A stretch of DNA of 64,000 bases, from contig CASEIN010000052.1 of assembly GCA_949287985.1 (NCBI GenBank), forward strand, positions 1 to 64,000, read 5' to 3'. Numbering within the stretch: the first letter of the stretch is position 1; every line of letters begins with the position of its first letter. The DNA is from Mucispirillum schaedleri. Lineage in GTDB: Bacteria; Chrysiogenota; Deferribacteres; Deferribacterales; Mucispirillaceae. A model generated the notes under the pieces. It worked only from the letters and a program-made list of their open reading frames with translations. It did not search any database and was not told where the DNA came from. A program made the translations under genes and the position numbers. Below, in pieces: positions 41,015-56,851 of the stretch.

Positions 41015-41722
41015 TTAGATACCATTATTATCTATACATTCAATATACTGTTTAAATGAATTCATAAAAACAATATCAATATAGTGAAATATTGTAAAAA
41101 ATAAAAAATAATTATTATATTTGTAACTATCACGTGCAATATCTTTAATTGTTGGAATATTATTAAGTTGTACTTTAGTGTTATGTGCTAAACTATTTCT
41201 CGTTGGAAGTATATATTTCTCGTAAATTGTAACAATAATATTTTTTTTATTTTCTTTTATTTTAACATCCATATTAGACACTATTTCTTGAAATTCTTGA
41301 TAATTTCTTAAATTACAATCTTTAAATAATGAATGATTAAATTTCTCATTTATTTTTTTTATACTATATTGCCAATATGTTATATCTATATTATTTAGTT
41401 TATTCTCTATATTACTATTTCTATATAAATTTATTTGCTGTATTAGTTCATTTAAAATTTTATTTTTATCTTTTAAAGTTGATCCACCCTTATACTCTCC
41501 AGTTAAGACTTTATGTCGTATATCAATATTATTATTGCTTATTTCAAAAATAATAGAATGCATTTTTTGTTCTAACATACCTGAAATCTTTAAAAATAAA
41601 GAATGCATAATATACTCTACTACTGGATAAGCACATAATTTATTATGTAAACCTGCTGTTGAAATTATTGCATCATCCATTAATTTATCTATAGGTATCA
41701 AAATAAAATTTACATTATTCAT
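41015..41722 (-). CDS. HEPN-domain protein (MAE_28990/MAE_18760-like), probable RNase
   Basis: This 235-residue all-helical protein has the HEPN active-site motif RNSLAH (R175-H180, RX4H) preceded by an aromatic and charged helix. HEPN proteins of this kind are RNA-cutting effectors in defence and toxin systems. It overlaps the DUF262 gene by 4 bases (ATGA), so the two are translated together; this pairing resembles DUF262/MAE_28990 two-gene units. The RNase role is inferred from the motif. Confidence 0.72.
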   Translation of the reverse strand: MNNVNFILIPIDKLMDDAIISTAGLHNKLCAYPVVEYIMHSLFLKISGMLEQKMHSIIFEISNNNIDIRHKVLTGEYKGGSTLKDKNKILNELIQQINLYRNSNIENKLNNIDITYWQYSIKKINEKFNHSLFKDCNLRNYQEFQEIVSNMDVKIKENKKNIIVTIYEKYILPTRNSLAHNTKVQLNNIPTIKDIARDSYKYNNYFLFFTIFHYIDIVFMNSFKQYIECIDNNGI

Positions 41723-42936
41723 ATAAATTGCCTATATATATTAATTGATGATTCAATTCTAGAACGCAAATATTTTAAAGCACTAGGTGTTTTTGCATGA
41801 TTTTTGTTTTTCTTTGATTCAAATATAGTCTTTTCAAGCATATCAGTAATATTGTTTCTATTATTAACAATAGAAGTATGATCAATATTTTTAAATATAA
41901 GAAAATACAATAAGCCAAACAGATAATAATCTGCATCAATAATACTGATATACTTACTTGGAAAATTAAGTTTTTCATATACGATATTTAATTTTTTAAT
42001 TTCCTCTGAATAATTGAAAGCTGCCCCAAATATATAAAATTTGTTCTGTTCTTTTTTATCTACTAAATAATATATATACTCTTCAATATATTGCTCTATA
42101 GTCTTTCCCTTTCTACCTACAAAACCTTTTGCTATATTCTTAGTTTCGCCTTGTTTTTTATATTCAGAAAGTAATGCAATATATCTAGCAAAGTCCATAT
42201 CATAAGTATCTATTTTAATTTTGCCCAAAACACTTTTTTCATCTGGCTGTAAAAATGGTTGGATACCTTCATCGAGCCAATAAAGAGAAGATCTACTTTC
42301 TACTGGTGTTAAATCTACTGCAGAGATATTAATATTTCTAAACATTGTAGAAAAATATCTTTTTTGTGCTTTGCTGTCAGATATATCTTTTGGTCTAACA
42401 TATGAAAATCCCAATCTTTTTGATTCAAAAAAATCTTGATTTATATCTCTAAGAATTTTATTCGATATAGTTTGATATTGATTAGAATTAATAAGTTTTT
42501 CTTTAATATCATCTTTTTTTATTTTACCATTATGTATTAAATCTTGTATTACAGTAAACTTCCATGCTTGTATATTTTCTTGTTCATCACCATCATCATT
42601 ATATTCTTTATCATCATTATAAGTTCCAAATACTTTAATATTTTCAGCAAATCCCTTCCCTTTTGGAAAACATCCAAGCCATGCCAAAAGTATTGCACTT
42701 AAACGTTGTTGTCCATCTAATACATAATTATGCTCTACTTCATTATCTTTATAGCTGCCAATAACCACAGGTGGAATGTACTGATTTTCTTGTAAACTTG
42801 CAATTAATTTTTCCACTTTTTCCTGACTCCATACAAAATATCTTTGATACGGGGGAAGAATAATTTCTTTATTCAATATCATGTTTATCCAATATTTAAG
42901 TGTATATTCACCATAATAAATATTATAACTAGACAT
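41719..42936 (-). CDS. DUF262 protein (ParB/GmrS-like nuclease fold)
   Basis: This protein of about 405 residues has an N-terminal DUF262 domain: ILPPYQRYFVWSQEKVEKLIASL near residue 24, then NYVLDGQQRLSAILLAWLG with the DGQQR nucleotide-binding/catalytic signature. The C-terminal half is helical. DUF262 proteins act in GmrSD-type and BrxU-type restriction. I start at ATG 42936 (GGTGG upstream); the longer start at 42990 has poor support. It follows res by 68 bases. Confidence 0.85.
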   Translation of the reverse strand: MSSYNIYYGEYTLKYWINMILNKEIILPPYQRYFVWSQEKVEKLIASLQENQYIPPVVIGSYKDNEVEHNYVLDGQQRLSAILLAWLGCFPKGKGFAENIKVFGTYNDDKEYNDDGDEQENIQAWKFTVIQDLIHNGKIKKDDIKEKLINSNQYQTISNKILRDINQDFFESKRLGFSYVRPKDISDSKAQKRYFSTMFRNINISAVDLTPVESRSSLYWLDEGIQPFLQPDEKSVLGKIKIDTYDMDFARYIALLSEYKKQGETKNIAKGFVGRKGKTIEQYIEEYIYYLVDKKEQNKFYIFGAAFNYSEEIKKLNIVYEKLNFPSKYISIIDADYYLFGLLYFLIFKNIDHTSIVNNRNNITDMLEKTIFESKKNKNHAKTPSALKYLRSRIESSINIYRQFI

Positions 42937-43004
42937 ATGCCACCATATTTTATTTTTTGTTATTTTACTACAAATAATAATATGAATCAACTGTCTTTAT
43001 TAAA

Positions 43005-46000
43005 TCACTTCATCTCATCAAATATTTTTTTGATATATTCTTCATCGTCCATAAAGAAAACATGTTTATCTTCCCAGTCTTTTTGTGGCTCTGGTTTTTG
43101 TAAAACATTTATAGATTTTGGGGAAAGTATAAAAGAGTTTAACACTACATTATATTTGCCATTATCATTTAATCTTTTTTCTACTTCTTTTATACCATTA
43201 TAAAATTCTACTTTTGAATCCATTATAGATGTTCTTGATATTCCGTGTGGGTCTATAAAGTTAATATACTGCACATTATCTTTGATTACCCACATAATAA
43301 AATCAGGGTAAAATCCACTGCCAGTAAAAAATCCTACACCTTTTTTACTTTGGTTGCGGATAACATATATATCCTGTATATCAGCTTTATTATCATCAAT
43401 ATGCTTTTTCAAATCTTCTAAAAACTTATATTCACCTTCATTTAATGATACTGGGCTTATTTTTATTTCCAGATTTCTATAATTATATAATAATGGGTGG
43501 TAAAGCATAGCATCATAGGAAGCATATTTAATAATGGCAGTTGCATTTGCAACAAGTGGAGTATTTTTTTCTTGAGCTTCTTTCACTGCCTCAATTAACT
43601 CTTTTATATTGCTTTCATATTCTGCCTGTTTATCTTTATTTATAGAAATATCTACAATATCATTTTCTATAAAATTATTATCATCATCTGATAACTCTAC
43701 ATATTCTTGATACTGGCTTTCCCATTCAAGACGCTTTTTATAATAAAATTTATCAAAATATTTTTTTAAAAGCATAATAGCAATATTTTCAAGCCTTGCA
43801 ATAACTTCAAAACTACTTATGATTGTAATATCATTATAAGCATGTATTACTGACCAGCTGTCATTACATGCTAATAAATCAATAATACATTCTTTTGTAA
43901 TATTTATATTATAATTACCAGTCATATTTTTGTATTCCTGCATTTTAAAATAAATATTATCATAATTAAAAAAATGGCAGTATATTTTAGGTATATGATA
44001 TTCTTTATATGGACAATCTTTGCTTTCTATTTTTTGTGATGAAACAGACTGCACAGTATTAAATAAATCTAAAATTACATTTATATTTTCTTCATAATGC
44101 AGTATTGGAATATCTGCGTGTTTTTTATAATCAAGCCCGTCTTTTAATTTTATGGTATAAAGTTTTTTAGCTTTAAATGATTTATTCCTAATAACATTCA
44201 TTTTATATATTTCATACTCTTTTATTTCCACCCCTTCTCTTCTAATAAATTCATCAAAAGTTTTCATATAGTCTGCATTGATACCAAAAATATTGAGGGT
44301 TTCCATAGTATTAAAAAATTCTGGAGTTTTAAGAGTTAAATCAATTTTTTTATAAGCACTGCTTCTTTTAAGTGAGTTATTATACCCTTTTAAGCGGACA
44401 CCTCTGCCAAAAAGCTGTATTATGCTGCTGCCTTCACTTTGCCCCACATTTAAAAGCCCCATACATGATACACGGTATGAGTTCCAGCCTTCTGTAAACT
44501 TTTTAGCACCTATTAATATATTAATATTACTTTTATCATTATTAATACCAGCAAAAAGCGAGTCTTTAAAACTGCTTTCTGATGTATTAAAATTTTGTTC
44601 CTGCAATTTTTTAAATAACGCAGCAGCATCGCCTACATTAATCACACCAAAATATTCATTTTCCCCAGCTTTTAGTGCAATTTCTCCATCTGAACCTTTT
44701 ATATTTTCAATATGTAATATACTTTGGCTTGATGAGCAGTTAAAGATTTTTTCAAGCATATCTTTATATATAACTTCTGCATCTAATATGTTTTTAGTTA
44801 AATATTTTAATGAGCCTGCAAAAATATCCTGATTATCTTTATTTAAATAACCGCTTTCAGATTTTAAAATATTTCTAATGGCAATAACAGATTTATTATT
44901 GCTGTTTTCAAGAAACTCTTTAATAAATATTAATACTTTATCAATATCAGATTCATTTTTAGAGCCTTTATTTGTAACAGTATTACCTACAAATATTAAA
45001 AGCGGCTTTGAAATATCAAACTTTTTACAATCTGTTAGATTATTGCTGTAAAATCTTAACTGCTGATAAAATGTTAACAGCACCCCTACCATATATGTAA
45101 AATCTGCAGATATATTATTTTCTGTATTATTATAGTTTAATATATTAAAATCTTTACCATAGCCGTCATTATAAAAATACTTATAAGAATAATTAAAAAT
45201 AATAGATTTTGCATATCTTTTAAATATACTATTATTATCTTTTGATTGTGCTGCCTGACCAAATGTGGCAGAATATTCAAAAGAAAAGCCTTTTTCACAA
45301 AGTTTTTTTCTATTTTCAAGCCATGTATCTCCTTTTGTGCCTCTATGCCCTTCATCTACAAATACCACATTATCATTGCCAAGGCTTTCTACTGCTATCT
45401 GCTCCACACCTTCTTTTTCTGCAAGTTTTGTATTTTCTATAACAGAAATATAATCGCTTCCAAGTCCATGCATTTTATTAAATCTATCTGATTCAATATT
45501 AGATAATGTAAATTCTTCAATATGCTGATATGAAAGCCTTTCGTTAGGTGTAATTAAAATATAGCTGTATTCTTTATTATATTTATTTTTAGAATAATGC
45601 TTATACTGCAGAAAATTTATATGCATTAATATGGTTTTTCCACTGCCTGTGGCGCTCCAAAGGGCAATAGAATTAAGGTCATCTTCACTGTATTTATATT
45701 CTGATAATTTATATGAAAAATCATCATTATAAAATCTATCTACAAAATCATTTAATTCTGCAAGCAGCTCATCTTTATTATTAAAATACATATCAAGGTA
45801 ATATTCTACAAATAAAAGATATAAATACTGATAATATTTAAGTTTTATTTTTATGAGCCTTTCTTTATTAATATATTCTAAATGGCTGACAATATTATAA
45901 TCATATTCTGATATTTTATCTTTTAATTGTTTATCTGCTATAACAATACAAAGTTCGCTGTAATATTTTGTATGATTATCTGCATCTAATGTATCATATT

Positions 46001-46130
46001 TATGATCATCTTTAAGTAATGCAAATAAATCATCAATATTTTTATACCCAAATTTTGTGCTTATATAGTTACTTAAAACAAGCTGTTTATCAAATGAAAG
46101 TTTTTGTGTATCTTTTGTATTATTTGCCAT
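43005..46130 (-). CDS. Type III restriction enzyme Res-like helicase/nuclease
   Basis: This 1041-residue superfamily 2 helicase has Walker A SATGSGKT near residue 155, NVVFVDEGHRGTKGDTW (DEGH box), SATFGQ (motif III) and IIQLFGRGVRLKG (motif VI). A C-terminal nuclease-like region contains GFYPDFIMWVIKDNVQYINFIDPHG, matching the PD-(D/E)xK pattern less one acidic residue. It starts 10 bases behind mod with GGAAGTGG upstream. In classical type III systems Res cuts only in complex with Mod. Confidence 0.88.
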   Translation of the reverse strand: MANNTKDTQKLSFDKQLVLSNYISTKFGYKNIDDLFALLKDDHKYDTLDADNHTKYYSELCIVIADKQLKDKISEYDYNIVSHLEYINKERLIKIKLKYYQYLYLLFVEYYLDMYFNNKDELLAELNDFVDRFYNDDFSYKLSEYKYSEDDLNSIALWSATGSGKTILMHINFLQYKHYSKNKYNKEYSYILITPNERLSYQHIEEFTLSNIESDRFNKMHGLGSDYISVIENTKLAEKEGVEQIAVESLGNDNVVFVDEGHRGTKGDTWLENRKKLCEKGFSFEYSATFGQAAQSKDNNSIFKRYAKSIIFNYSYKYFYNDGYGKDFNILNYNNTENNISADFTYMVGVLLTFYQQLRFYSNNLTDCKKFDISKPLLIFVGNTVTNKGSKNESDIDKVLIFIKEFLENSNNKSVIAIRNILKSESGYLNKDNQDIFAGSLKYLTKNILDAEVIYKDMLEKIFNCSSSQSILHIENIKGSDGEIALKAGENEYFGVINVGDAAALFKKLQEQNFNTSESSFKDSLFAGINNDKSNINILIGAKKFTEGWNSYRVSCMGLLNVGQSEGSSIIQLFGRGVRLKGYNNSLKRSSAYKKIDLTLKTPEFFNTMETLNIFGINADYMKTFDEFIRREGVEIKEYEIYKMNVIRNKSFKAKKLYTIKLKDGLDYKKHADIPILHYEENINVILDLFNTVQSVSSQKIESKDCPYKEYHIPKIYCHFFNYDNIYFKMQEYKNMTGNYNINITKECIIDLLACNDSWSVIHAYNDITIISSFEVIARLENIAIMLLKKYFDKFYYKKRLEWESQYQEYVELSDDDNNFIENDIVDISINKDKQAEYESNIKELIEAVKEAQEKNTPLVANATAIIKYASYDAMLYHPLLYNYRNLEIKISPVSLNEGEYKFLEDLKKHIDDNKADIQDIYVIRNQSKKGVGFFTGSGFYPDFIMWVIKDNVQYINFIDPHGISRTSIMDSKVEFYNGIKEVEKRLNDNGKYNVVLNSFILSPKSINVLQKPEPQKDWEDKHVFFMDDEEYIKKIFDEMK

Positions 46131-46140
46131 ACACCACTTC

Positions 46141-49083
46141 CTATATACCGTTAAACATTTTATCTTTCATAACTTCTTCTATTAAAGCGACTTTATAACT
46201 GCCTTCTTTTGCAAAATTTTGCAGGCTGTTTGTGCCGTTAATATATATGATATCATATTCACTTTCTGCTGGCTTTATTTGGTTTTTTAAAGTAACAGAT
46301 TCAAGCACTGCATTATTTTTATTTAAGTCATCATTATTATTTATATCGCCTACAATATTTCGCCAAATAACAAGCACTTTTTCCCCTTTTAAAGTAGAGC
46401 CTTCCACTATTTTAAAAATATATTGCCCATTATTATCAGGCTTAATATCTGCCTGCAGTCTGCCAGTATCAATTGTTTTAAACAATGCATTATATTTTTT
46501 AGTATATATATTATTAACCTGCAGCCCTATAAGAAAATTAAAAGTTTCTATTAAATCTATCTTTTGCACCCTGCTTTCATTTTTCCTGGTGATTTTAAGC
46601 TGAAATTCAAAAGGATTATAAAAAACTTCAGCAGGCAGATATATTTTGCTGTTTTCTGCCTCTTTTTGTATTTTATATTTAGTAAGATATTCGTTTTGAA
46701 GAAAATCATCTACAACTAAAGGTTTGCTAAATTCCACATTATTAAGAGTATCTTCATAACTTTCAAGACGAATATATTTAAAAATATGGCTGCTTCCCTC
46801 TCGGCTGACAGGCTTGCCGTCTTTCCAGTCTTTAGAATATATTACTTTTTCTATGCGTGGCTTTGTAACAGTATCAAAATATTCTCCCATTTCCACTAAA
46901 ATATATTTTCTTTTACCATTTTCTTTATCTTCTCTATTAAGGTTAATAACAGCATGGCCTGTTGTGCCAGAGCCTGCAAAGAAATCAAGGATAAGAGAAG
47001 ACGAAAATATATATGTATTCATATTAATCAAATATTTTATTAATGAAATAGGTTTAGGATAACTAAAATCTTGATGTAATTTTAAATCATATAATTCTTT
47101 TAAAGCACTTTCATTTGTTCCAATTCCAACTGAACGTTCTAATTCAATATTTAGTGAATTATTAGGTGTTTTAAAAGAGCATTCATTAATAGGTCTTTGA
47201 AATCGAATAGACATTTTATTTGTTTTAATTATAAAATAAGTTCCAAGCTTTACTTCATTATCTAAGTATGGTTGAGACCACTTAAATTCACCACTCATTC
47301 TAAATGAATTATAATTATACCCATCAACTAAAACAACATCATCTAATAATTGAACTTTTTCATAATTACCCTTGTTTATTATTCCGTCATTTAGAAATAT
47401 AAATTTTACACTATTTTTAGGAAAATTTAATTCTTTAATTGGATTACCAGTATTTAATAATGGAGCATCTCCACCATCTAATAGAGAACCAAAAAAACGA
47501 TTATTTGTTAATTTTGATTCATAACATTCTATAAATTCTACTGTTTTTCTACATTTATTTGACAATCCCGGTGGAGTTGCAGTTTTAGTCCATAAAAATG
47601 AAGTAACAAAACTTTGTTCCCCAAATATTGTATCACCTACTTTTCGTAAATTACTTAATTCATTATCATCAATACTTGAAAAAAATACAGCTTTATCATT
47701 CATTAATTGCTTCATTTTCTCTAATCTGTCATACATCATAGCAAGCCAGGAAGAATGTTTATAATTATCTTTATAATTAAAATCTCTATTTTCTGTATTA
47801 TACGGTGGGTCAATATAGACGCACTGCACCTGCTCTTTATATTTTTCCTGCATTAAATTAAGGGCTTGAAAGTTATCTCCATGGATAAGTAGGCCGTCTA
47901 TATTTTCATCTAGATTTTCAATATCTGCTATTATTTTTTCTTTAAATTCTTCACTAAAAAAGGAAGTATCTAGCACTAAATATTCATTAGCTTTTAAAAA
48001 CTCTTTTGTTAATGGTTCACTGTATTCTTTAGTATGTAAATCGCCTTTTATTTCATCTATAGCAAAAAGTTTTTTCCATTCTTCAATCTGTGCTTGATTT
48101 GCTATTATTTCATCATAATATTTTTCATTTATTTTATCTAATGTTATACAATAGTTTGTTTCTGTTACAAATTTCTTTTTTAAATAAAGTTCTTTTTGAA
48201 AATCTTCCAATTGAGCTAAAAAAGTGATTATTTCACTGCCTATATTTTGTATAACACTTGCTTTTTTTACATACATATCCAGATTTTTTATATTATCCTT
48301 ACTGCCATATAAATCCTGCAAATAGATGACTTCGTTTTTTATATAAAAATCTAACTCCTGCATTAAAAATTTTTTTAAATCTTTATGGATAAAAAAATCA
48401 AAACTGTTTTTTGCTATATATTTATTTAAGTGATATCCTATATGACTTTTTGTATATATATCTTTATCTTTATCCTGCTCATTTCTTATTTTAAAAAGGT
48501 TGCCTATTTTTGATTTTATATGTGATGAAATTTCATTATTATTTTCAAGCTGTTTTACTGCATTGATTATTGCTTCACTGCTTTCTTTCTGCTTTACATC
48601 TTTACCATATCTATAAGAAAGCCTTATAAAAAGCTCTGCTCTTGTTTTTTCTTCATTTTCTAATACATATATTGGCTTTTCATATTCTTCTGATGCTTCT
48701 GCTAATACATATACTTTCTTATCGTCTGATTTGTTGTTATCTCTTTCTATCTCTGCATCTGTTAATATAAAAGTTACATTAAAATCATCTTCTATATTAA
48801 ATGTATAATCTTTAAAATTTTCACCAGTTTTTATGTAATACTGGTCATGGTTTGCCCAGTGGAGTTTTACTTCCTCCCCGCTGTATGGCACTGCATATAC
48901 ACCGTCTTTATATCTTCTTTGGGATATAAAATCGCCCTCATCATAATATCTGCTAAAAAATGTAAGCAGTTTATCATATATTTCTTCTTCTGTATTGCCA
49001 CTTAATGATGCCTGTTGTAACTGGGATATTTCACTTTTTATATCTTCTATCTTTTTAACAGCATCTAAATTCCCCCCCCCCAA
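46141..49083 (-). CDS. Type III-like DNA adenine methyltransferase (Mod), main reading frame
   Basis: This is the large part (about 976 residues) of a beta-class N6-adenine (or N4-cytosine) methyltransferase: VQCVYIDPPYNTENRDF (motif IV, DPPY) comes before LILDFFAGSGTTGHAV (motif I), with a long variable target-recognition region between. Its true N-terminus is the short frame at 49055-49321, cut off by a run of ten G at 49072-49081. With nine G the two frames join into a 1059-residue protein. The only upstream start in this frame is a TTG inside the G tract with no ribosome site, so full-length Mod is probably not made in this state. Confidence 0.9.
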   Translation of the reverse strand: MGGGNLDAVKKIEDIKSEISQLQQASLSGNTEEEIYDKLLTFFSRYYDEGDFISQRRYKDGVYAVPYSGEEVKLHWANHDQYYIKTGENFKDYTFNIEDDFNVTFILTDAEIERDNNKSDDKKVYVLAEASEEYEKPIYVLENEEKTRAELFIRLSYRYGKDVKQKESSEAIINAVKQLENNNEISSHIKSKIGNLFKIRNEQDKDKDIYTKSHIGYHLNKYIAKNSFDFFIHKDLKKFLMQELDFYIKNEVIYLQDLYGSKDNIKNLDMYVKKASVIQNIGSEIITFLAQLEDFQKELYLKKKFVTETNYCITLDKINEKYYDEIIANQAQIEEWKKLFAIDEIKGDLHTKEYSEPLTKEFLKANEYLVLDTSFFSEEFKEKIIADIENLDENIDGLLIHGDNFQALNLMQEKYKEQVQCVYIDPPYNTENRDFNYKDNYKHSSWLAMMYDRLEKMKQLMNDKAVFFSSIDDNELSNLRKVGDTIFGEQSFVTSFLWTKTATPPGLSNKCRKTVEFIECYESKLTNNRFFGSLLDGGDAPLLNTGNPIKELNFPKNSVKFIFLNDGIINKGNYEKVQLLDDVVLVDGYNYNSFRMSGEFKWSQPYLDNEVKLGTYFIIKTNKMSIRFQRPINECSFKTPNNSLNIELERSVGIGTNESALKELYDLKLHQDFSYPKPISLIKYLINMNTYIFSSSLILDFFAGSGTTGHAVINLNREDKENGKRKYILVEMGEYFDTVTKPRIEKVIYSKDWKDGKPVSREGSSHIFKYIRLESYEDTLNNVEFSKPLVVDDFLQNEYLTKYKIQKEAENSKIYLPAEVFYNPFEFQLKITRKNESRVQKIDLIETFNFLIGLQVNNIYTKKYNALFKTIDTGRLQADIKPDNNGQYIFKIVEGSTLKGEKVLVIWRNIVGDINNNDDLNKNNAVLESVTLKNQIKPAESEYDIIYINGTNSLQNFAKEGSYKVALIEEVMKDKMFNGI

Positions 49084-49321
49084 GTTCTTCTAAAGTTTTA
49101 ATTTTTGTTTCAAGCTCTTTAATTTTAGCTGTATTATCAACACTTACTGTTTGCATACTTTTTAAAAATTCATTTATTTTATTGGGAAGTGTATTATTTA
49201 TATAATTTTCAATATCACTTTTTTTCTCATTTATTATTCTATATATACCAAAATCTAACCCATTATTTATTTGAAATAATTCATGTAATTTTTCAATAAA
49301 TGCCTGCTGTTTTGCTGCCAT
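49055..49321 (-). CDS. N-terminal fragment of Mod, out of frame in this assembly
   Basis: This 88-residue frame starts at ATG 49321, overlaps the SNF2 gene stop by one base (TAATG) and has GGGAGG 7 bases upstream, a strong coupled start. It contains LHELFQINNGLDFGIYRIINEKKSDIENYI, a block seen at the start of large adenine methyltransferases, then a coiled coil ending EELGGG. After the G tract it leaves the Mod frame and stops within six codons. It is the real start of the mod gene, not a separate small gene. Confidence 0.85.
   Translation of the reverse strand: MAAKQQAFIEKLHELFQINNGLDFGIYRIINEKKSDIENYINNTLPNKINEFLKSMQTVSVDNTAKIKELETKIKTLEELGGGEFRCC
49072..49081 (-). repeat. G10 homopolymer inside mod (phase-variation tract)
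   Basis: Ten consecutive G on the coding strand, in an AT-rich genome where I saw no other G or C run of this length. The number of G sets the frame: 9 or 12 gives full-length Mod, 10 gives a stop six codons later. Confidence 0.9.
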
Positions 49322-52185
49322 TAGATAACCTCCCAAGCTATTGTATATATTTCTTCTAATTTTGCATCTTTTACCATACGGCTTTTTATTTCTTCTATTA
49401 ATGCTTTTCGTTTTTCATATACTGCATCTTCATTATCTTCTAAATTACGGCGCATTTTGCTTTTTTTAGCATTTAATTCCAGTAATTCTTGGTTTAAATT
49501 ATATTTTTCTTCCATACTTGATGCAAGCCTTATTTGCTTTTCTTTTTCTCTTACAAGCTCTTTTATATTTTTCAGCTCTATCTCAAGCCGCTGCACCATA
49601 TCTTTTGACCAGCCCTCAAGCCGTTCTTCTTCCTGCTGAAAATACTGCATATTATTTTTTTCTGATACTATATCTTTTTCACGAGCATATTTTTCTATTT
49701 TGCTTTTTAATATATTTCTCTTATCTTCTGCTATTTCTGACACTTCATATTTACCCATACATTCAAACAACTTTTCGCACACATTTTCTGCTACAAACTC
49801 CCCGTTTTCCTGCATACCTGCAAAAAGTAAATATTCTTCCTTATCAAATGAATTAATTGTATATTTATATAAACTTAAATACCCTTTACGACCCTTTAAA
49901 TTTTCCACTTGGGTTATTTTAAGGGGGTTATCTGTTATATTAAAAATAACTTTGCCACTTTTTTCTGGTATGTGTAACCCTCTTTTTATTACATATTCAC
50001 CTAAAGGGTGGTTGGTTCTATATATTATACCGTTATTATTTTCATATTTTTTAGAGATTAATGCATATTTGCCAGAAATAATATTATCTATATTATCCTT
50101 TAAATAAAAACTATGGTCATCATCATTAAATTCTGCTTTTTCATGTAATATATATTTACTTAAAAGCCAAAATTGGCTGGAAAATTTATCTAAATATTCA
50201 TCTATATTTAATTTTAATCTTTCAAAAACTTCACTGTCAAAATTTTTAAATAAATCTTCATGGGCTTTTTGTATATTTTGATTAATTATTTCTTCCATAC
50301 TTTTTTGAAGCTCATTGAAACTTTGCTCTATTTCTTCATGTGTTCTACACTGCTGATATATTTCTAATATTTTTCTTTCAAAATCTATACATGATTCTAA
50401 TGCACCCAGTACTTCATCACTAGAACCAAATACACCATTAAATAAATTAAATTTATGGGCTAAAAGCTCATATACTCGCCTATCCACATCGTTAGATTCA
50501 TTAATAAAGTTTATTACAACCACATCATTTTTTTGCCCATACCTGTGGCATCTGCCTATACGCTGCTCTATCCTTTGGGGGTTCCATGGCAGGTCGTAAT
50601 TTATCACTAACGAACAAAACTGTAAGTTTACACCTTCGGCAGCTGATTCTGTTGCTATCATTATTTCTGCACTATCCCTAAAATATTCTATTAAAGCATT
50701 TCTTTTATCTGCCGTTTTAGAGCCGCTGCACCTGCCAGTATATTTATTTTTTTCAAGCCAGTCATTATATATAGCTGTAGTTTCTGCTCCACTATTACTA
50801 CCGTTAAATAATACAAGTTTTCCTTTATAACCATTTTCTTCTAAAAAATCTTTTAAAAACTTTTGTGTTCTTGTGCTTTCTGTAAAAATAAGGGCTTTTT
50901 TATTGCCACCAAGTTTATTTGTCTGCTTAAAACCCTCATCTAATGCAAGTAATAGCTTTTCTGCCTTTGCATCTTTTTTTATATGCGTTGCTATATCTAA
51001 AAAACCTTTTATTTCTTCTATCTCTTTATTTAATAACCCTAAATCTATTGTATCGAAACTATCCTGCTCATCATCATCTTCACATACATCATCTTCTAAA
51101 CTTTCTGATATTAAATATTTTAAATCATCATCACCATCTAGTATAAATACACCTTCATTATCCTTATCAACATACACTTTTCCTCCTGCCTGCTCCCTTA
51201 AAGTTTCTAATCTTTTAAGTATGGTTTGAAGTGTATTTATTACAGCGTTTGTGGAAGATGCCAGAACTTTACGAACAACAAGTGTTACTATATGCCTTTG
51301 GTTTACAGGCACAGCATAAGTATATTCCCTTTGCAAAAACTGGGATATTTTTTCATATAAAGTGTTTTCCAGCTTTGAAGGCTTAAATTTAAATACTATA
51401 GGGTGACGGGCAGTATATTTTATATACTCCATAACATCTTTTCTTAGGGTTCTATAACAAAATTGATTTAAACGCGTTTTTAAATCGCCTAAATCACCAC
51501 TACCCGCATAATTTGCACGGAAAGATTTTATATCACCAAAAATATATTCATCTATTACTGAAGCAAGGCCAAAAAGCTCTGCCAAATTATTTTGTAAAGG
51601 GGTAGCCGTTAGTAATAATTTACGAGTGCTTTTTAAAGCAGGCACTAAACTTTTGCCAAGCCTGTTGCTTGAACGGTAAGAATTACGCAGCTTATGTGCC
51701 TCATCTAAAACAGCTAAATGAAAATTATTTATAAGTATTTCTTCGCTTATTTTTGAAGCATAGTTGTATGACATAATAAAAATATTATCATAAAGTAATG
51801 GCGATTTACCGTGTTCTTTTTTATATAGTTTATAGGACTGGCTGTCTACTATCATGGAAGGAAGATTGAACTTTTCCTGTAATTCTATTGACCATTGCTT
51901 CCGTAAAGCAGCAGGGCATATTACTAAAAGCCTGCGTTTGCCCTCTGCCCATAACTGGCATAATATTAAACCTGCCTCTATAGTTTTACCAAGCCCCACT
52001 TCATCTGCCAATATTACACCCTTAGAAAGGGGGGAATTAAAAGCAAATAAAGCAGCATTTACTTGATGAGGGTTTACAACCAAAGCAGCATCAAATAATG
52101 ATGAAGATAAACGGCTTTCATCACTATAAGATTTCTTTAATAATAACTGATTAGCATAATATTTCCCATGAAATGGCGTTATCAA
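49321..52185 (-). CDS. SNF2-family helicase
   Basis: This 954-residue SWI2/SNF2 ATPase has GVILADEVGLGKTIEAGLI near residue 56 (Walker A), LAVLDEAHKLRN (DEAH box), LLLTATPLQNN (motif III), then ESAAEGVNLQFC and QRIEQRIGRCHRYGQ (motifs V, VI). A long coiled-coil C-terminal region (about 830-950) follows. The start is TTG at 52185 with GAGGG ahead. It is coupled to mod by a one-base overlap, so helicase, Mod and Res form one unit. Similar helicases are used to translocate DNA in defence systems. Confidence 0.92.
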   Translation of the reverse strand: MITPFHGKYYANQLLLKKSYSDESRLSSSLFDAALVVNPHQVNAALFAFNSPLSKGVILADEVGLGKTIEAGLILCQLWAEGKRRLLVICPAALRKQWSIELQEKFNLPSMIVDSQSYKLYKKEHGKSPLLYDNIFIMSYNYASKISEEILINNFHLAVLDEAHKLRNSYRSSNRLGKSLVPALKSTRKLLLTATPLQNNLAELFGLASVIDEYIFGDIKSFRANYAGSGDLGDLKTRLNQFCYRTLRKDVMEYIKYTARHPIVFKFKPSKLENTLYEKISQFLQREYTYAVPVNQRHIVTLVVRKVLASSTNAVINTLQTILKRLETLREQAGGKVYVDKDNEGVFILDGDDDLKYLISESLEDDVCEDDDEQDSFDTIDLGLLNKEIEEIKGFLDIATHIKKDAKAEKLLLALDEGFKQTNKLGGNKKALIFTESTRTQKFLKDFLEENGYKGKLVLFNGSNSGAETTAIYNDWLEKNKYTGRCSGSKTADKRNALIEYFRDSAEIMIATESAAEGVNLQFCSLVINYDLPWNPQRIEQRIGRCHRYGQKNDVVVINFINESNDVDRRVYELLAHKFNLFNGVFGSSDEVLGALESCIDFERKILEIYQQCRTHEEIEQSFNELQKSMEEIINQNIQKAHEDLFKNFDSEVFERLKLNIDEYLDKFSSQFWLLSKYILHEKAEFNDDDHSFYLKDNIDNIISGKYALISKKYENNNGIIYRTNHPLGEYVIKRGLHIPEKSGKVIFNITDNPLKITQVENLKGRKGYLSLYKYTINSFDKEEYLLFAGMQENGEFVAENVCEKLFECMGKYEVSEIAEDKRNILKSKIEKYAREKDIVSEKNNMQYFQQEEERLEGWSKDMVQRLEIELKNIKELVREKEKQIRLASSMEEKYNLNQELLELNAKKSKMRRNLEDNEDAVYEKRKALIEEIKSRMVKDAKLEEIYTIAWEVI

Positions 52186-52265
52186 AATACCCTCACAAAT
52201 TAAATGTTAATAAAAATGTATGCTAACATATTTATATAATTTTGGCTAGTAGGGAAATTTATAGG

Positions 52266-53516
52266 TTAACTTTTCTCACAATAAATAAAATCTAAAATAG
52301 CCTGAGCTATTTTGTGCGAAAGAATTGGAGGAACTGCATTACCAATCTGTTTAAATGCTGCTGATCTAGAATGTTCAAATACAAAATTATCTGGAAACCC
52401 TTGAATTCTTGCAGCCTCCCTTACTGTGATTGAACGATTTTGGTCTATATCTGGGTGTATATAATAGTGACCATCTTTTGCAATATGAGCAACTACAGTA
52501 TGACATATGGAATTATAATCTAATGCTTTATACCTATCCAAAAAACTACTTTTATTAGAATGAGTCTGTAAATTTTTAGGAATATTATTATACTTTAAGT
52601 TTTTTCCTTGTTTTTTTGCTTCTACAACTAATTTATATATTTTTAAATCATTTTTATTATGTGGACGAGCAATATGTTGCAATAAAATATCTTTTTCATT
52701 GCGTATATATTTAGAAATATAGTTACTAAAAATTTTTCGACAATACTTATTTGATGTTTCTCCTGCTTGTAACTTTGGTAAATCCTCAAATAACTCTTTC
52801 AATGTCGGTGCTTCTTCCATATAGCTTGTTAGATAATCAAAAAAAGAGTGCTTCAATTTTAAATCTTTTCTGTGCCCCACAAGAAATAATCGCTCTCTAC
52901 TTTGAGCAACTCCATAGTCATTAGCATTAATTATTTTACAGCTTACTTCATATCCAACTTGATCAAATTCATTAATTATTTTAGGCAATAAGAAATCACC
53001 TGAAATATCTTTAAAGGATAATAATCCTTTAACATTTTCAAAGATAAAAAATTTAGGTTTATACTCTTCCAAAAAGTTAAGATAATATTTATATAAATAA
53101 ATTCTTTCATCTGTCATTTTTTTAGCTTTATTATTAACTCTACCTATCATTGAGTATGCTTGACATGGTGGACCACCTATAATCCCATCTAATTTTTTAC
53201 CATCAAGACTACTATTAATATATTTAAATATTAGAGGTAAAGTATCATGATTGATTTCTTCATTAATAACACTATGTATAATATTTTTTGGTACATAACT
53301 ATACAATATTTCTTTTGAAATTATTCCAGAAATATAATCATAATACACTGATAAATCATTATTTTGTCTCAAATAATAATATATATTTCTCAAAACCAAA
53401 GAAGAACAAGCTTCTTTATCCTTTTCTATATGACATATTATATTAAAACTATTATTTAGCCTAAAACCCTCTGTTAATCCACCAGCCCCAGAAAATAAAT
53501 CTATGATATTTAACAC
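52266..53516 (-). CDS. DNA (cytosine-5)-methyltransferase
   Basis: This 416-residue enzyme has motif I IIDLFSGAGGLTEGF (residues 4-18), motif IV GGPPCQAYS with catalytic C118, motif VI FIFENVKGL, motif VIII NDYGVAQSRERLFLVGHR, and motifs IX-X (TVREAARIQGFP, QIGNAVPPILS). An unusual insertion of about 50 residues lies between motifs II and IV. All motifs look active. It follows the receiver-domain gene by 31 bases. No dedicated restriction gene for it is adjacent. Confidence 0.94.
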   Translation of the reverse strand: MLNIIDLFSGAGGLTEGFRLNNSFNIICHIEKDKEACSSLVLRNIYYYLRQNNDLSVYYDYISGIISKEILYSYVPKNIIHSVINEEINHDTLPLIFKYINSSLDGKKLDGIIGGPPCQAYSMIGRVNNKAKKMTDERIYLYKYYLNFLEEYKPKFFIFENVKGLLSFKDISGDFLLPKIINEFDQVGYEVSCKIINANDYGVAQSRERLFLVGHRKDLKLKHSFFDYLTSYMEEAPTLKELFEDLPKLQAGETSNKYCRKIFSNYISKYIRNEKDILLQHIARPHNKNDLKIYKLVVEAKKQGKNLKYNNIPKNLQTHSNKSSFLDRYKALDYNSICHTVVAHIAKDGHYYIHPDIDQNRSITVREAARIQGFPDNFVFEHSRSAAFKQIGNAVPPILSHKIAQAILDFIYCEKS

Positions 53517-53547: not shown

Positions 53548-54687
53548 TTAGTTAGTTAATTTATCCAATATAATATCAGAATTAAATTTTGGTTGACCTT
53601 GCCTATGATAATAGCTACTAAATCTTGAAACTATATCTTTTTTAAAATGATCCGTAATTACTCCTATTTTTTCATATGTATTATCTTCTAGTGTTCCAGT
53701 ATTCTTATTATATTTCAAAAATATCATGGAGCGAAAATCAACAAAACCTCCTTTAAAGTTATTTACAGGAGGTAAAAAATGATATCTTAATGATGCTGAT
53801 GAAGAATTAGTAAACCATAAAAATAACTTTTCTAATTTCTCTTTTTTTTCTTTATCTTTATTTTCTCTATTATAACTTTTTAATAACTCAGAAAAGTTCT
53901 GTACATTATCATAGCTTTTAATTTCGCACATTATAATATCCTCCACCTTTTTATTAACAAGGTCACATGTAGGATTCATAACCAAATAATATGAATTAGA
54001 AGAATCCATAAATATATCACAAGTACATATTTGATCAATTGGATTAGGAAAAAGATACATCTCAATAGGTTCAAAATCTTCATATCCGTCATCATACATA
54101 TATTTATTAGTAAGCCAATTAGAAATATATCTGATTATCACTTTTCTTTTTTTACTATTATCTAAATGAGTTATATCACTTTTATTTTTTAAAAAAAAAT
54201 TAGGAATAATATTCCATATTAAATTTTTAAAATTTGTGTTTATATCTCCTTTTGTACCATAAATTTCAAAAAGAAAATGATCATACTTATCAAGAAAAGT
54301 TTTTATAACTTTATAAAATGATTCATCTTTACTGCAGATAGTTATAAAATCATTATGATTATTTATTATTGATAATTTATGTGGAGTAGCCGATCTAACA
54401 ATTATAGGCATAACTTCTCTATCCATTATTTGATTTAATATAATATTACCAGAAATATCATCATCATCTTTTGTCATATCATCATTACTTAAATTTAAAT
54501 CAATAATTACTATACTATAGTTATTTCTATATAGCTTGATGATTGCTTCCTCAGGATTTAAAGCTACATCAAGTATGAAACTAATATCATCATCTTTATA
54601 TGTATTGTTTAATTCACTAATTTCTGATTGTAGTAATTCTTCTTGTTCTTTATCATCATCAATCAACAATAAACTAATATTCCTCAT
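53548..54687 (-). CDS. Receiver-domain protein with unassigned C-terminal domain
   Basis: This protein of about 379 residues begins with a receiver-like domain: LLLIDDDKEQ (acidic pocket near residue 10), IVIIDLNLS with candidate phospho-acceptor D63, IIVRSATPH, and a conserved Lys in SKDESF. The remaining 240 residues are not a DNA-binding output. They include YYLVMNPTCDLVNK and a C-terminal VSRFSSYYHRQGQPKF block that I know only as a domain seen near defence genes. I start at ATG 54687 (GAGGAG upstream). It starts one base after the kinase-like gene, so the two are coupled. Confidence 0.78.
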   Translation of the reverse strand: MRNISLLLIDDDKEQEELLQSEISELNNTYKDDDISFILDVALNPEEAIIKLYRNNYSIVIIDLNLSNDDMTKDDDDISGNIILNQIMDREVMPIIVRSATPHKLSIINNHNDFITICSKDESFYKVIKTFLDKYDHFLFEIYGTKGDINTNFKNLIWNIIPNFFLKNKSDITHLDNSKKRKVIIRYISNWLTNKYMYDDGYEDFEPIEMYLFPNPIDQICTCDIFMDSSNSYYLVMNPTCDLVNKKVEDIIMCEIKSYDNVQNFSELLKSYNRENKDKEKKEKLEKLFLWFTNSSSASLRYHFLPPVNNFKGGFVDFRSMIFLKYNKNTGTLEDNTYEKIGVITDHFKKDIVSRFSSYYHRQGQPKFNSDIILDKLTN

Positions 54688-54688
54688 T

Positions 54689-56851
54689 TCACTCCTCACT
54701 TTTATATAAAATAATTCTAAAATATCCACCATAACTATAATCTACAGCTTCTAATTTACCATGATTTCTCTGTACAGCCTCACCAGCGATCGCTAAACCC
54801 AAGCCTGTTCCATTTTCACTCGTAACAGTATATTTTTTTGAATACCCTGGATAAAAGAGTAGATTCTCTATTATATCTTCTGATGGTACACCTGGTCCAT
54901 TATCAATTATTTCAATTACTATATTTTTTTCATCACTATACATTTTTATTTTTATTATTTTTTTATCTTGTTTTGAATAATCAACCCAAAAGATTGCATT
55001 TTCTATAATATTTGTTAATGCCATATATAAATCTTCTTCAATGATAGCATAATAAATATTATCTGATAAATAATATTCTATTATAATATTTTTTTCCTGT
55101 ATTATATTTTCAAATATTTCAACAACTTCTAGTATTTTTTCTTTAAGATTAATAACCTGTTTTTTCTTTCTTTTATTGGCAGATAATGGGTCTAATCTTT
55201 TAAATAAATTGCTCATTCTGCCAGCTTCACAACTTAATTTTTGAATAGTATTTATTAAATCATTGTAGCCACTAGAACTAATTTCATTATTTAAATTTAA
55301 TGCACTAAGTTTACGTTCCATATATGGTAATTTATTACCATACCATGAAAGAGGCTTTCTTGCTTCATGTAACACAACATTAAGTACATTTCCTAATGTT
55401 GCATGTTTTTGATATATGGCTATAGCTTCTTTAACCTCTATAAACTCTGCTTCTTTTTCCTTTTCTAGCTTTTTAAGTTCGTTACCTATCCCTTTATTAA
55501 GTTTAGAAATTTGCTCCTTAACATTTTCAGGATTATTTTGTAAATTTTGATATGTTTCTTCAATTAATTTCTCAACATTTTGATGGACATCACTAAAATC
55601 AAATAATCTCTCTATAGCAGCAGTCTTTCTTTTATTTCTTGTTTGTCTATATTTAAATCTTTCTTCTTGCAATAATTGAAGTGCTCTCCATGACAATTCC
55701 ACTAAAGTATTAAAATTTTGATTTTCATACAATCCATCTCTTGCACTTTTTTCTTTTAGTCCAGATATATCTTCATCTTCTATACTAATTCTTCCATGTA
55801 TTTGTTCTGAACCGATTGACATACTAGGATTTTGTACACGTTTAGAATCAAGATATAACCAATCAAACCCTGGATCTCCATATGGCCTAATTCTAAATCC
55901 ATTGCGAAAAATACTCACTCCTGACTGATCTTTTAATATTTTTTTTATCTTTGCAGTAGAGTACCGAGTATCATGAGTGCCATTTATAAAATTAGTAATT
56001 AATTCTATACCTGCTGGATCTTTATCATATACATTGTAATCAATTGTAATATTACCACACGATGGATTGTTTTCATTTAATATATTTTTAAAACTATTTA
56101 CAAATTTCTTTTCTTCTTTAGTATAATAATTTTTGTATGTCAATTCATAACTGAAATCAGAATAAATATTACCAAATAATCTATAGTGGCATACATCACT
56201 ATACACTAATGGTTTTATAGGTTTGCATATATTTTTTTCATGAATTTGGAAAAATCTATCATAACATACTTCTATATGAAAATCATCTTTTTTCGCTAAA
56301 AGTTTAGATAATTCATTTTCTATATTCTCTATATCTTTTTCATCTATTTTCTCTTGTGCTGAATTATCATTTATAATAGTTAGAATTGTACCATTTTGCT
56401 GATTTGTTTCACTTATTTCTATATCTATAGGTATTTCACTTAGTTTTTTTTCAGAATTAAAATCATCCCAATCAAAAGAAGCTGTTGTTTTCTCACCATT
56501 ACATATGGTCATTAACTCTAACTTATTACCTAAGATTGAAACAGCATAGCGTCCTAATCCCTTTCTTCCCTGATATTTTCTTCCTTTGGGACTAACTTGT
56601 TTTTTTAATTTATAATCAGTTGATGGAACCATCCATGCACCAGTAACAATATCACTACTCATACCATGCCCATCATCTTCAATAGTAATAATCAAGTCTT
56701 CTAATATTTTTTTAAATGTTATTTTTACATAGCTGGCATCTGCATCATAAGAGTTTTTAACTAACTCTACTATTGCTGCCTGAGGATCTTTAATTAAATC
56801 TTTTCCTATAGACATAATGAGCCTACCAGTAGGTTCAAAAAAACTTTTCAT
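54689..56851 (-). CDS. Dual GHKL ATPase, histidine-kinase-like protein
   Basis: This 720-residue protein has two GHKL ATPase domains. The N-terminal one is HSP90/MORC-like: AIVELVKNSYDADA (N33), IEDDGHGM, GRKGLGRYAVSILG. After a coiled coil (about 385-470) comes an H-box-like VVLHEARKPLSW and a second, histidine-kinase-type ATPase: NIIENAIFWVD, IEIIDNGPGVP, GTGLGLAIAG. No membrane segments are present, so it senses something inside the cell. It pairs with the receiver-domain gene. Phosphotransfer is inferred from the motifs. Confidence 0.85.
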   Translation of the reverse strand: MKSFFEPTGRLIMSIGKDLIKDPQAAIVELVKNSYDADASYVKITFKKILEDLIITIEDDGHGMSSDIVTGAWMVPSTDYKLKKQVSPKGRKYQGRKGLGRYAVSILGNKLELMTICNGEKTTASFDWDDFNSEKKLSEIPIDIEISETNQQNGTILTIINDNSAQEKIDEKDIENIENELSKLLAKKDDFHIEVCYDRFFQIHEKNICKPIKPLVYSDVCHYRLFGNIYSDFSYELTYKNYYTKEEKKFVNSFKNILNENNPSCGNITIDYNVYDKDPAGIELITNFINGTHDTRYSTAKIKKILKDQSGVSIFRNGFRIRPYGDPGFDWLYLDSKRVQNPSMSIGSEQIHGRISIEDEDISGLKEKSARDGLYENQNFNTLVELSWRALQLLQEERFKYRQTRNKRKTAAIERLFDFSDVHQNVEKLIEETYQNLQNNPENVKEQISKLNKGIGNELKKLEKEKEAEFIEVKEAIAIYQKHATLGNVLNVVLHEARKPLSWYGNKLPYMERKLSALNLNNEISSSGYNDLINTIQKLSCEAGRMSNLFKRLDPLSANKRKKKQVINLKEKILEVVEIFENIIQEKNIIIEYYLSDNIYYAIIEEDLYMALTNIIENAIFWVDYSKQDKKIIKIKMYSDEKNIVIEIIDNGPGVPSEDIIENLLFYPGYSKKYTVTSENGTGLGLAIAGEAVQRNHGKLEAVDYSYGGYFRIILYKSEE

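Follow-up and report, generated by a model that had tools for sequence, protein, structure and literature searches.

An operon for an SNF2-family helicase, a Mod methyltransferase and a Res-like helicase-nuclease, present in Mucispirillum schaedleri (assembly GCA_949287985.1, contig CASEIN010000052.1), very probably encodes a type III-like system in which the mod gene is translationally phase-variable and was captured in the OFF state. The window analyzed, i.e., the whole stretch of 64,000 nucleotides from positions 1 to 64,000 of this contig, with a G+C content of 30%, carries ten consecutive G on the minus strand at positions 49072-49081, read directly from the sequence and located inside mod.

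The mod gene and its interruption

The operon and its neighbours comprise the following features.

54689-56851, minus strand: gene for a protein with two HATPase domains (HATPase_c_3 and a histidine-kinase-like HATPase_c), a neighbour of the operon
53548-54732, minus strand: gene for a 394-aa protein with no family match, overlapping the HATPase gene
52266-53516, minus strand: DrmMII-like C5-cytosine DNA methyltransferase, the upstream neighbour
49321-52185, minus strand: DrmD-like SNF2-family helicase, with a stop codon overlapping the mod ATG
49055-49321, minus strand: 5' part of mod in the G10 reading, 88 codons up to a premature stop, with residues 1-80 corresponding to the Mod-family N-terminus
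49072-49081, minus strand: G10 homopolymer, the proposed slipped-strand switch, directly after mod codon 80
46141-49071, minus strand: 3' part of mod, 976 codons in the other frame, with an N6_N4_Mtase domain at 46876-47829 and the motifs DPPYN and FAGSGTT
43005-46130, minus strand: Res-like helicase-nuclease in which Walker A, DEGH and a PD-(D/E)xK-like motif (PDF..FIDPH) are intact
41719-42990, minus strand: gene for a GmrSD_N (DUF262)-domain protein, downstream of res

The ATG of mod at 49321 overlaps the stop codon of the SNF2 gene (ATCTAATGG). On the minus strand the tract region reads GAAGAACTT, then ten G, then AATTTAGATGC; it is the only place in the window with a G or C run of at least eight (three overlapping matches, 0.07 expected by shuffling). 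With G10 the mod frame comprises 88 codons and reaches a stop at 49055, a few codons past the tract (..LGGGEFRCC, stop). The probability of finding 977 open codons by chance at the window composition is approximately 4e-36. The first-pass annotation had described the G10 tract, the early stop and some 976 codons open in another frame, and this description proved exact. Tract lengths divisible by three place both parts of mod in one frame; nine G give a protein of 1059 residues, as had also been claimed, and this joined reading aligns end to end with homologues. The first in-frame starts downstream of the tract are GTG at 48891, with a weak Shine-Dalgarno-like sequence, and ATG at 48363, because of which leaky or truncated Mod products are possible; the OFF state may be leaky by polymerase slippage or internal initiation.

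Both parts belong to the same protein family. The 88-aa part matches positions 3-57 of the PADLOC profile MTase_III PDLC03646 (E=9.3e-10), and the long part matches the same profile, 1057 positions in length, with E=1e-165. The latter carries the N6_N4_Mtase domain (PF01555, E=3.3e-29), its best solved relatives are the type III Mod proteins 6k0w and EcoP15I (4zcf), and it is by sequence a beta-class N6-adenine methyltransferase in which DPPY precedes FxGxG, the order characteristic of type III Mod. The N-terminus, earlier called normal for a methyltransferase, is so for the SNF2-linked family of about 1050 residues represented by PDLC03646, but not for the classical EcoP15I-type Mod of about 600 residues.

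The alignment of the joined reading covered approximately 70 homologues of many different phyla, most of which share 32-50% identity with it. Nearly all of those not cut by a contig end are single chains that continue uninterrupted across the junction; therefore, the length state of the G tract alone separates the mod gene described here from a normal member of the family. The tract is located where the homologues have a loop of variable length, usually LG(V/A/M). Outside the genus a G8 run is present in just one of 82 homologous mod loci, which marks the switch as a lineage-specific addition and not a trait of the protein family.

A type III-like system with an SNF2 helicase

The adjacent Res protein matches REase_III PDLC03654 (E=2.4e-166) and combines, by its motifs, a superfamily 2 helicase with a PD-(D/E)xK-type nuclease, as expected of a type III system. 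Walker A, DEGH and PDF..(D/E)P(K/H) are conserved in 45 relatives, and PDF..FIDPH is the H/K variant of PD-(D/E)xK. Type III systems consist of two genes with no further core helicase, whereas here an SNF2 gene is coupled upstream of mod. The same order, SNF2 upstream and Res downstream of mod, is found in many homologous loci, several other contigs being too short to hold all three genes. Given the upstream coupling of SNF2 at this locus and its proximity to mod in many of the homologous loci, the system was filed as type III-like.

An assignment to DISARM, suggested by the PADLOC results in which the SNF2 protein is closest to DrmD and the C5 methyltransferase closest to DrmMII, was considered and rejected. 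The SNF2 protein scores 658.7 bits against the NCBIfam model DrmD_b, below the curated cut-off of 950, and the PADLOC scan of the nine operon and neighbour proteins found no DrmA, DrmB or DrmC protein, the sole DrmA match being due to a shared helicase domain in the SNF2 protein. The low DrmD_b score and the lack of the drmA/drmB/drmC core among these proteins therefore define an SNF2-associated type III-like system, not DISARM. The C5 methyltransferase gene probably belongs to the same defence island as the mod operon.

No intact orthologue of the SNF2-linked mod was found in the congeners searched. In one of them, G009, all that is left is the first ~110 codons of the SNF2 gene and the DNA upstream of it (L143, positions 2415-2809, contig C109), 85% identical at the DNA level to window positions 51869-52260; loss of the SNF2-Mod-Res operon thus occurs in the genus. 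The defence island surrounding this remnant contains a HATPase gene and a C5 methyltransferase that differ from those in the window. It is also worth mentioning that near its own C5 methyltransferase G009 has a comparable HATPase gene with an open reading frame of 351 codons after it, an arrangement reminiscent of the gene pair at 53548-56851 of the window. Searches of viral contigs with exact patterns and with the SNF2 protein revealed no other tract-length versions of the locus.

Poly-G tracts in the genome, the genus and the order

The whole genome (2.44 Mb; 79 contigs, 97% complete) contains 29 tracts of at least nine G, whereas Markov models of the window, trained with the tract excluded, predict ~0.03-1.3. 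An order-5 model trained with the tract included, which predicted ~12 C runs, was discarded since it had learned the tract itself. Fifteen of the 29 tracts lie inside genes open on both sides, ten of them in frame and five shifted. These are mostly glycosyltransferase, acyltransferase or membrane protein genes and include those for family 2 and family 8 glycosyltransferases, GtrII, an MBOAT acyltransferase and a sulfatase-fold membrane enzyme, as well as a formyltransferase, an FAD oxidoreductase and a second mod; their functions are those usually listed for contingency loci. Five further tracts of this genome (L100, L101, L110, L111 and L124) have no long open frame on both sides and are probably intergenic. 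Intergenic G tracts might change promoter spacing.

Tracts of at least nine G are present in all nine congeners searched, with many in a congener assembled as a single contig (2.35 Mb). For genomes from the remaining families of the order, the count of match positions for such tracts is mostly 0-9. Three genomes of the order, G037, G024 and G011 (families f4 and f1), have 417, 53 and 69, respectively, and the order may therefore include further lineages with poly-G systems. Another feature separating the genus from its relatives is the type VI secretion system, which M. schaedleri possesses and other Deferribacteres lack (PMC5285517); a type VI secretion gene was found in eight of ten genomes of the genus and in one of 40 other relatives searched.

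The second mod of the genome is a canonical type III gene accompanied by res (L114, positions 1-4733 of contig C57). Its G9 tract closely follows the catalytic motif FSGSATT and is in frame (ON). In the congener G005 the orthologous gene is shifted by a G11 tract; over 1781 bases it shares 93% identity with the C57 gene, the sole indel being the 2-base difference in the tract. The orthologue in G008 has G9. In G002 and G009 the corresponding site reads GACGGTGGAAAT, with no tract, while the G002 gene has G9 at another position; a different mod of G002 has G10 and is shifted. G tracts may have arisen at two different positions within one related mod gene. Altogether, tracts are present in six of the nine long mod genes of the genus, in frame in three and shifted in three, for which p is ~1e-10 to 5e-9 if 1-2% of genes carry one, this background rate being an estimate. 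The type I specificity genes hsdS of four congeners also have tracts, in frame or shifted and placed between the two target-recognition domains: G9 in G003 (L192) and G002 (L194/L213), G10 in G007 (L217), and G8 in G006 (L218); their length apparently varies among relatives. Tract-length variation between species was thus seen for the C57-type mod, which is a different gene from the SNF2-linked one.

The tract in the SNF2-linked mod is a repeat of hypermutable type in a coding region, in which a change of length shifts the frame, as in genes phase-variable by simple sequence repeats (SSRs). Since tracts occur genome- and genus-wide, are found in mixed frame states and have changed in length between orthologues, translational phase variation of Mod is supported, and the initial reading, in which a G tract holds a phase-variable type III-like mod in the OFF state, gains weight from this genus-wide system, with its recurrent tracts in mod and hsdS.

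Several other explanations of the interrupted gene were weighed. It is unlikely that the tenth G arose by an error of sequencing or assembly and that the sampled strain had G9 with the gene ON. Homopolymers are error-prone, a single base sets the state and the assembly is a draft in 79 contigs, but G10, G11 and shifted tracts recur in independent genomes, including the many tracts of at least nine G in the single-contig congener. Even at G9 the tract would remain a mutable switch of this type, and an error would therefore alter the captured state and not the system. Still less probable is an ordinary pseudogene, a fixed frameshift having killed mod in a decaying operon. The remnant in G009 is a precedent for loss of the operon; here, however, the 977 downstream codons and the entire SNF2 and Res genes are open with their motifs intact, and the lesion falls exactly in a hypermutable type of tract that is enriched 20-fold or more across the genome.

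Long G runs are generally known to provoke slippage, and programmed transcriptional slippage or ribosomal frameshifting at the tract would yield a constant fraction of full-length Mod from a G10 gene. We regard this as improbable, slightly less so than a pseudogene: tracts of orthologous mod genes vary in length between species, in and out of frame, a pattern more in keeping with heritable switching than with a conserved recoding signal, and homologues elsewhere have no tract. A two-subunit arrangement, with the 88-aa piece and the 976-aa protein as separate products that cooperate, is the least credible of all. A TTG at 49083 is a conceivable start of the long frame, but it has no Shine-Dalgarno sequence, its G belongs to the tract, and the homologues are single chains.

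The proposed switch and known systems

In the proposed phase-variable system, slipped-strand mispairing during replication would add or remove G in the tract. A length divisible by three would yield the full adenine methyltransferase of ~1059 residues (ON), while in the G10 state of the assembly translation would end after 88 codons, giving a product with no catalytic domain (OFF). Type III Res requires Mod, as established for EcoP1I and EcoP15I. By analogy, the OFF state is expected to be safe because Res would act only in complex with Mod, and methylation and restriction would be silenced jointly with no self-damage. Reversible switching in the population, the enzyme activities, the coupled loss of restriction and an effect as a phasevarion or on phage resistance are all inferred.

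The switch would be part of a genus-wide poly-G contingency system also covering the second, canonical type III mod, the type I hsdS genes of congeners and surface-polysaccharide genes. A broader proposal, to which we give an even chance, is that this genus of gut-mucus commensals switches much of its immune and methylation repertoire randomly and combinatorially by poly-G tracts, alongside surface-sugar genes, the repertoire including the SNF2-Mod-Res defence, the canonical type III mod and the type I specificity subunits; each clone would then contain several immune-epigenetic types mixed together.

Most known cases of phase variation in restriction systems come from host-adapted proteobacteria, mycoplasmas and streptococci; its occurrence across Mucispirillum would extend the phenomenon to the Deferribacterota. 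No report of phase variation in Mucispirillum or Deferribacteres was found in the open-access literature, an earlier listing in a REBASE survey of type III SSRs being possible. Mucispirillum dwells in mouse-gut mucus and has cultured strains, which makes it a tractable commensal for studies of phage pressure, clonal heterogeneity and methylation-controlled expression in gnotobiotic mice. Draft genomes of the genus will mis-annotate switched genes as pseudogenes.

The closest known counterparts are the phase-variable type III mod genes and their phasevarions, i.e., modA, modB and modD of Haemophilus and Neisseria, modH of Helicobacter pylori, and modM, modK and modS, which share with the present gene a repeat tract in the coding region of an N6-adenine methyltransferase, a frameshifted OFF state and an adjoining res. 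SSRs have been found in 17.4% of type III mod genes (PMC7394358). The Mod described here differs in its size of ~1059 residues with a long N-terminal extension, in the SNF2 helicase encoded upstream and in its host from another phylum. DISARM class 1, with its drmD SNF2 gene and drmMI, resembles the locus in the SNF2 protein closest to DrmD and the C5 methyltransferase closest to DrmMII, but no DrmA, DrmB or DrmC protein was found among the nine proteins scanned, and the locus has a Res-like nuclease instead. The G8-G10 tracts between the target-recognition halves of congener hsdS genes resemble the G-tract switching of NgoAV in Neisseria gonorrhoeae, a likeness that concerns type I systems elsewhere in the genus and not the SNF2-mod locus. 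The pglX gene of the Pgl defence system of Streptomyces coelicolor also has a phase-variable G tract (PMC4365076), and in both Pgl/BREX and the present locus a G tract shifts the frame of the adenine methyltransferase gene within a phage-defence operon of several genes; PglX, however, belongs to another methyltransferase family and has kinase, phosphatase and ATPase partners that have no equivalent here. While phase-variable Mods with G tracts are thus already well known, the novelty of this one lies in an unusual, SNF2-associated Mod and in a phylum for which the open-access literature yielded no earlier report.
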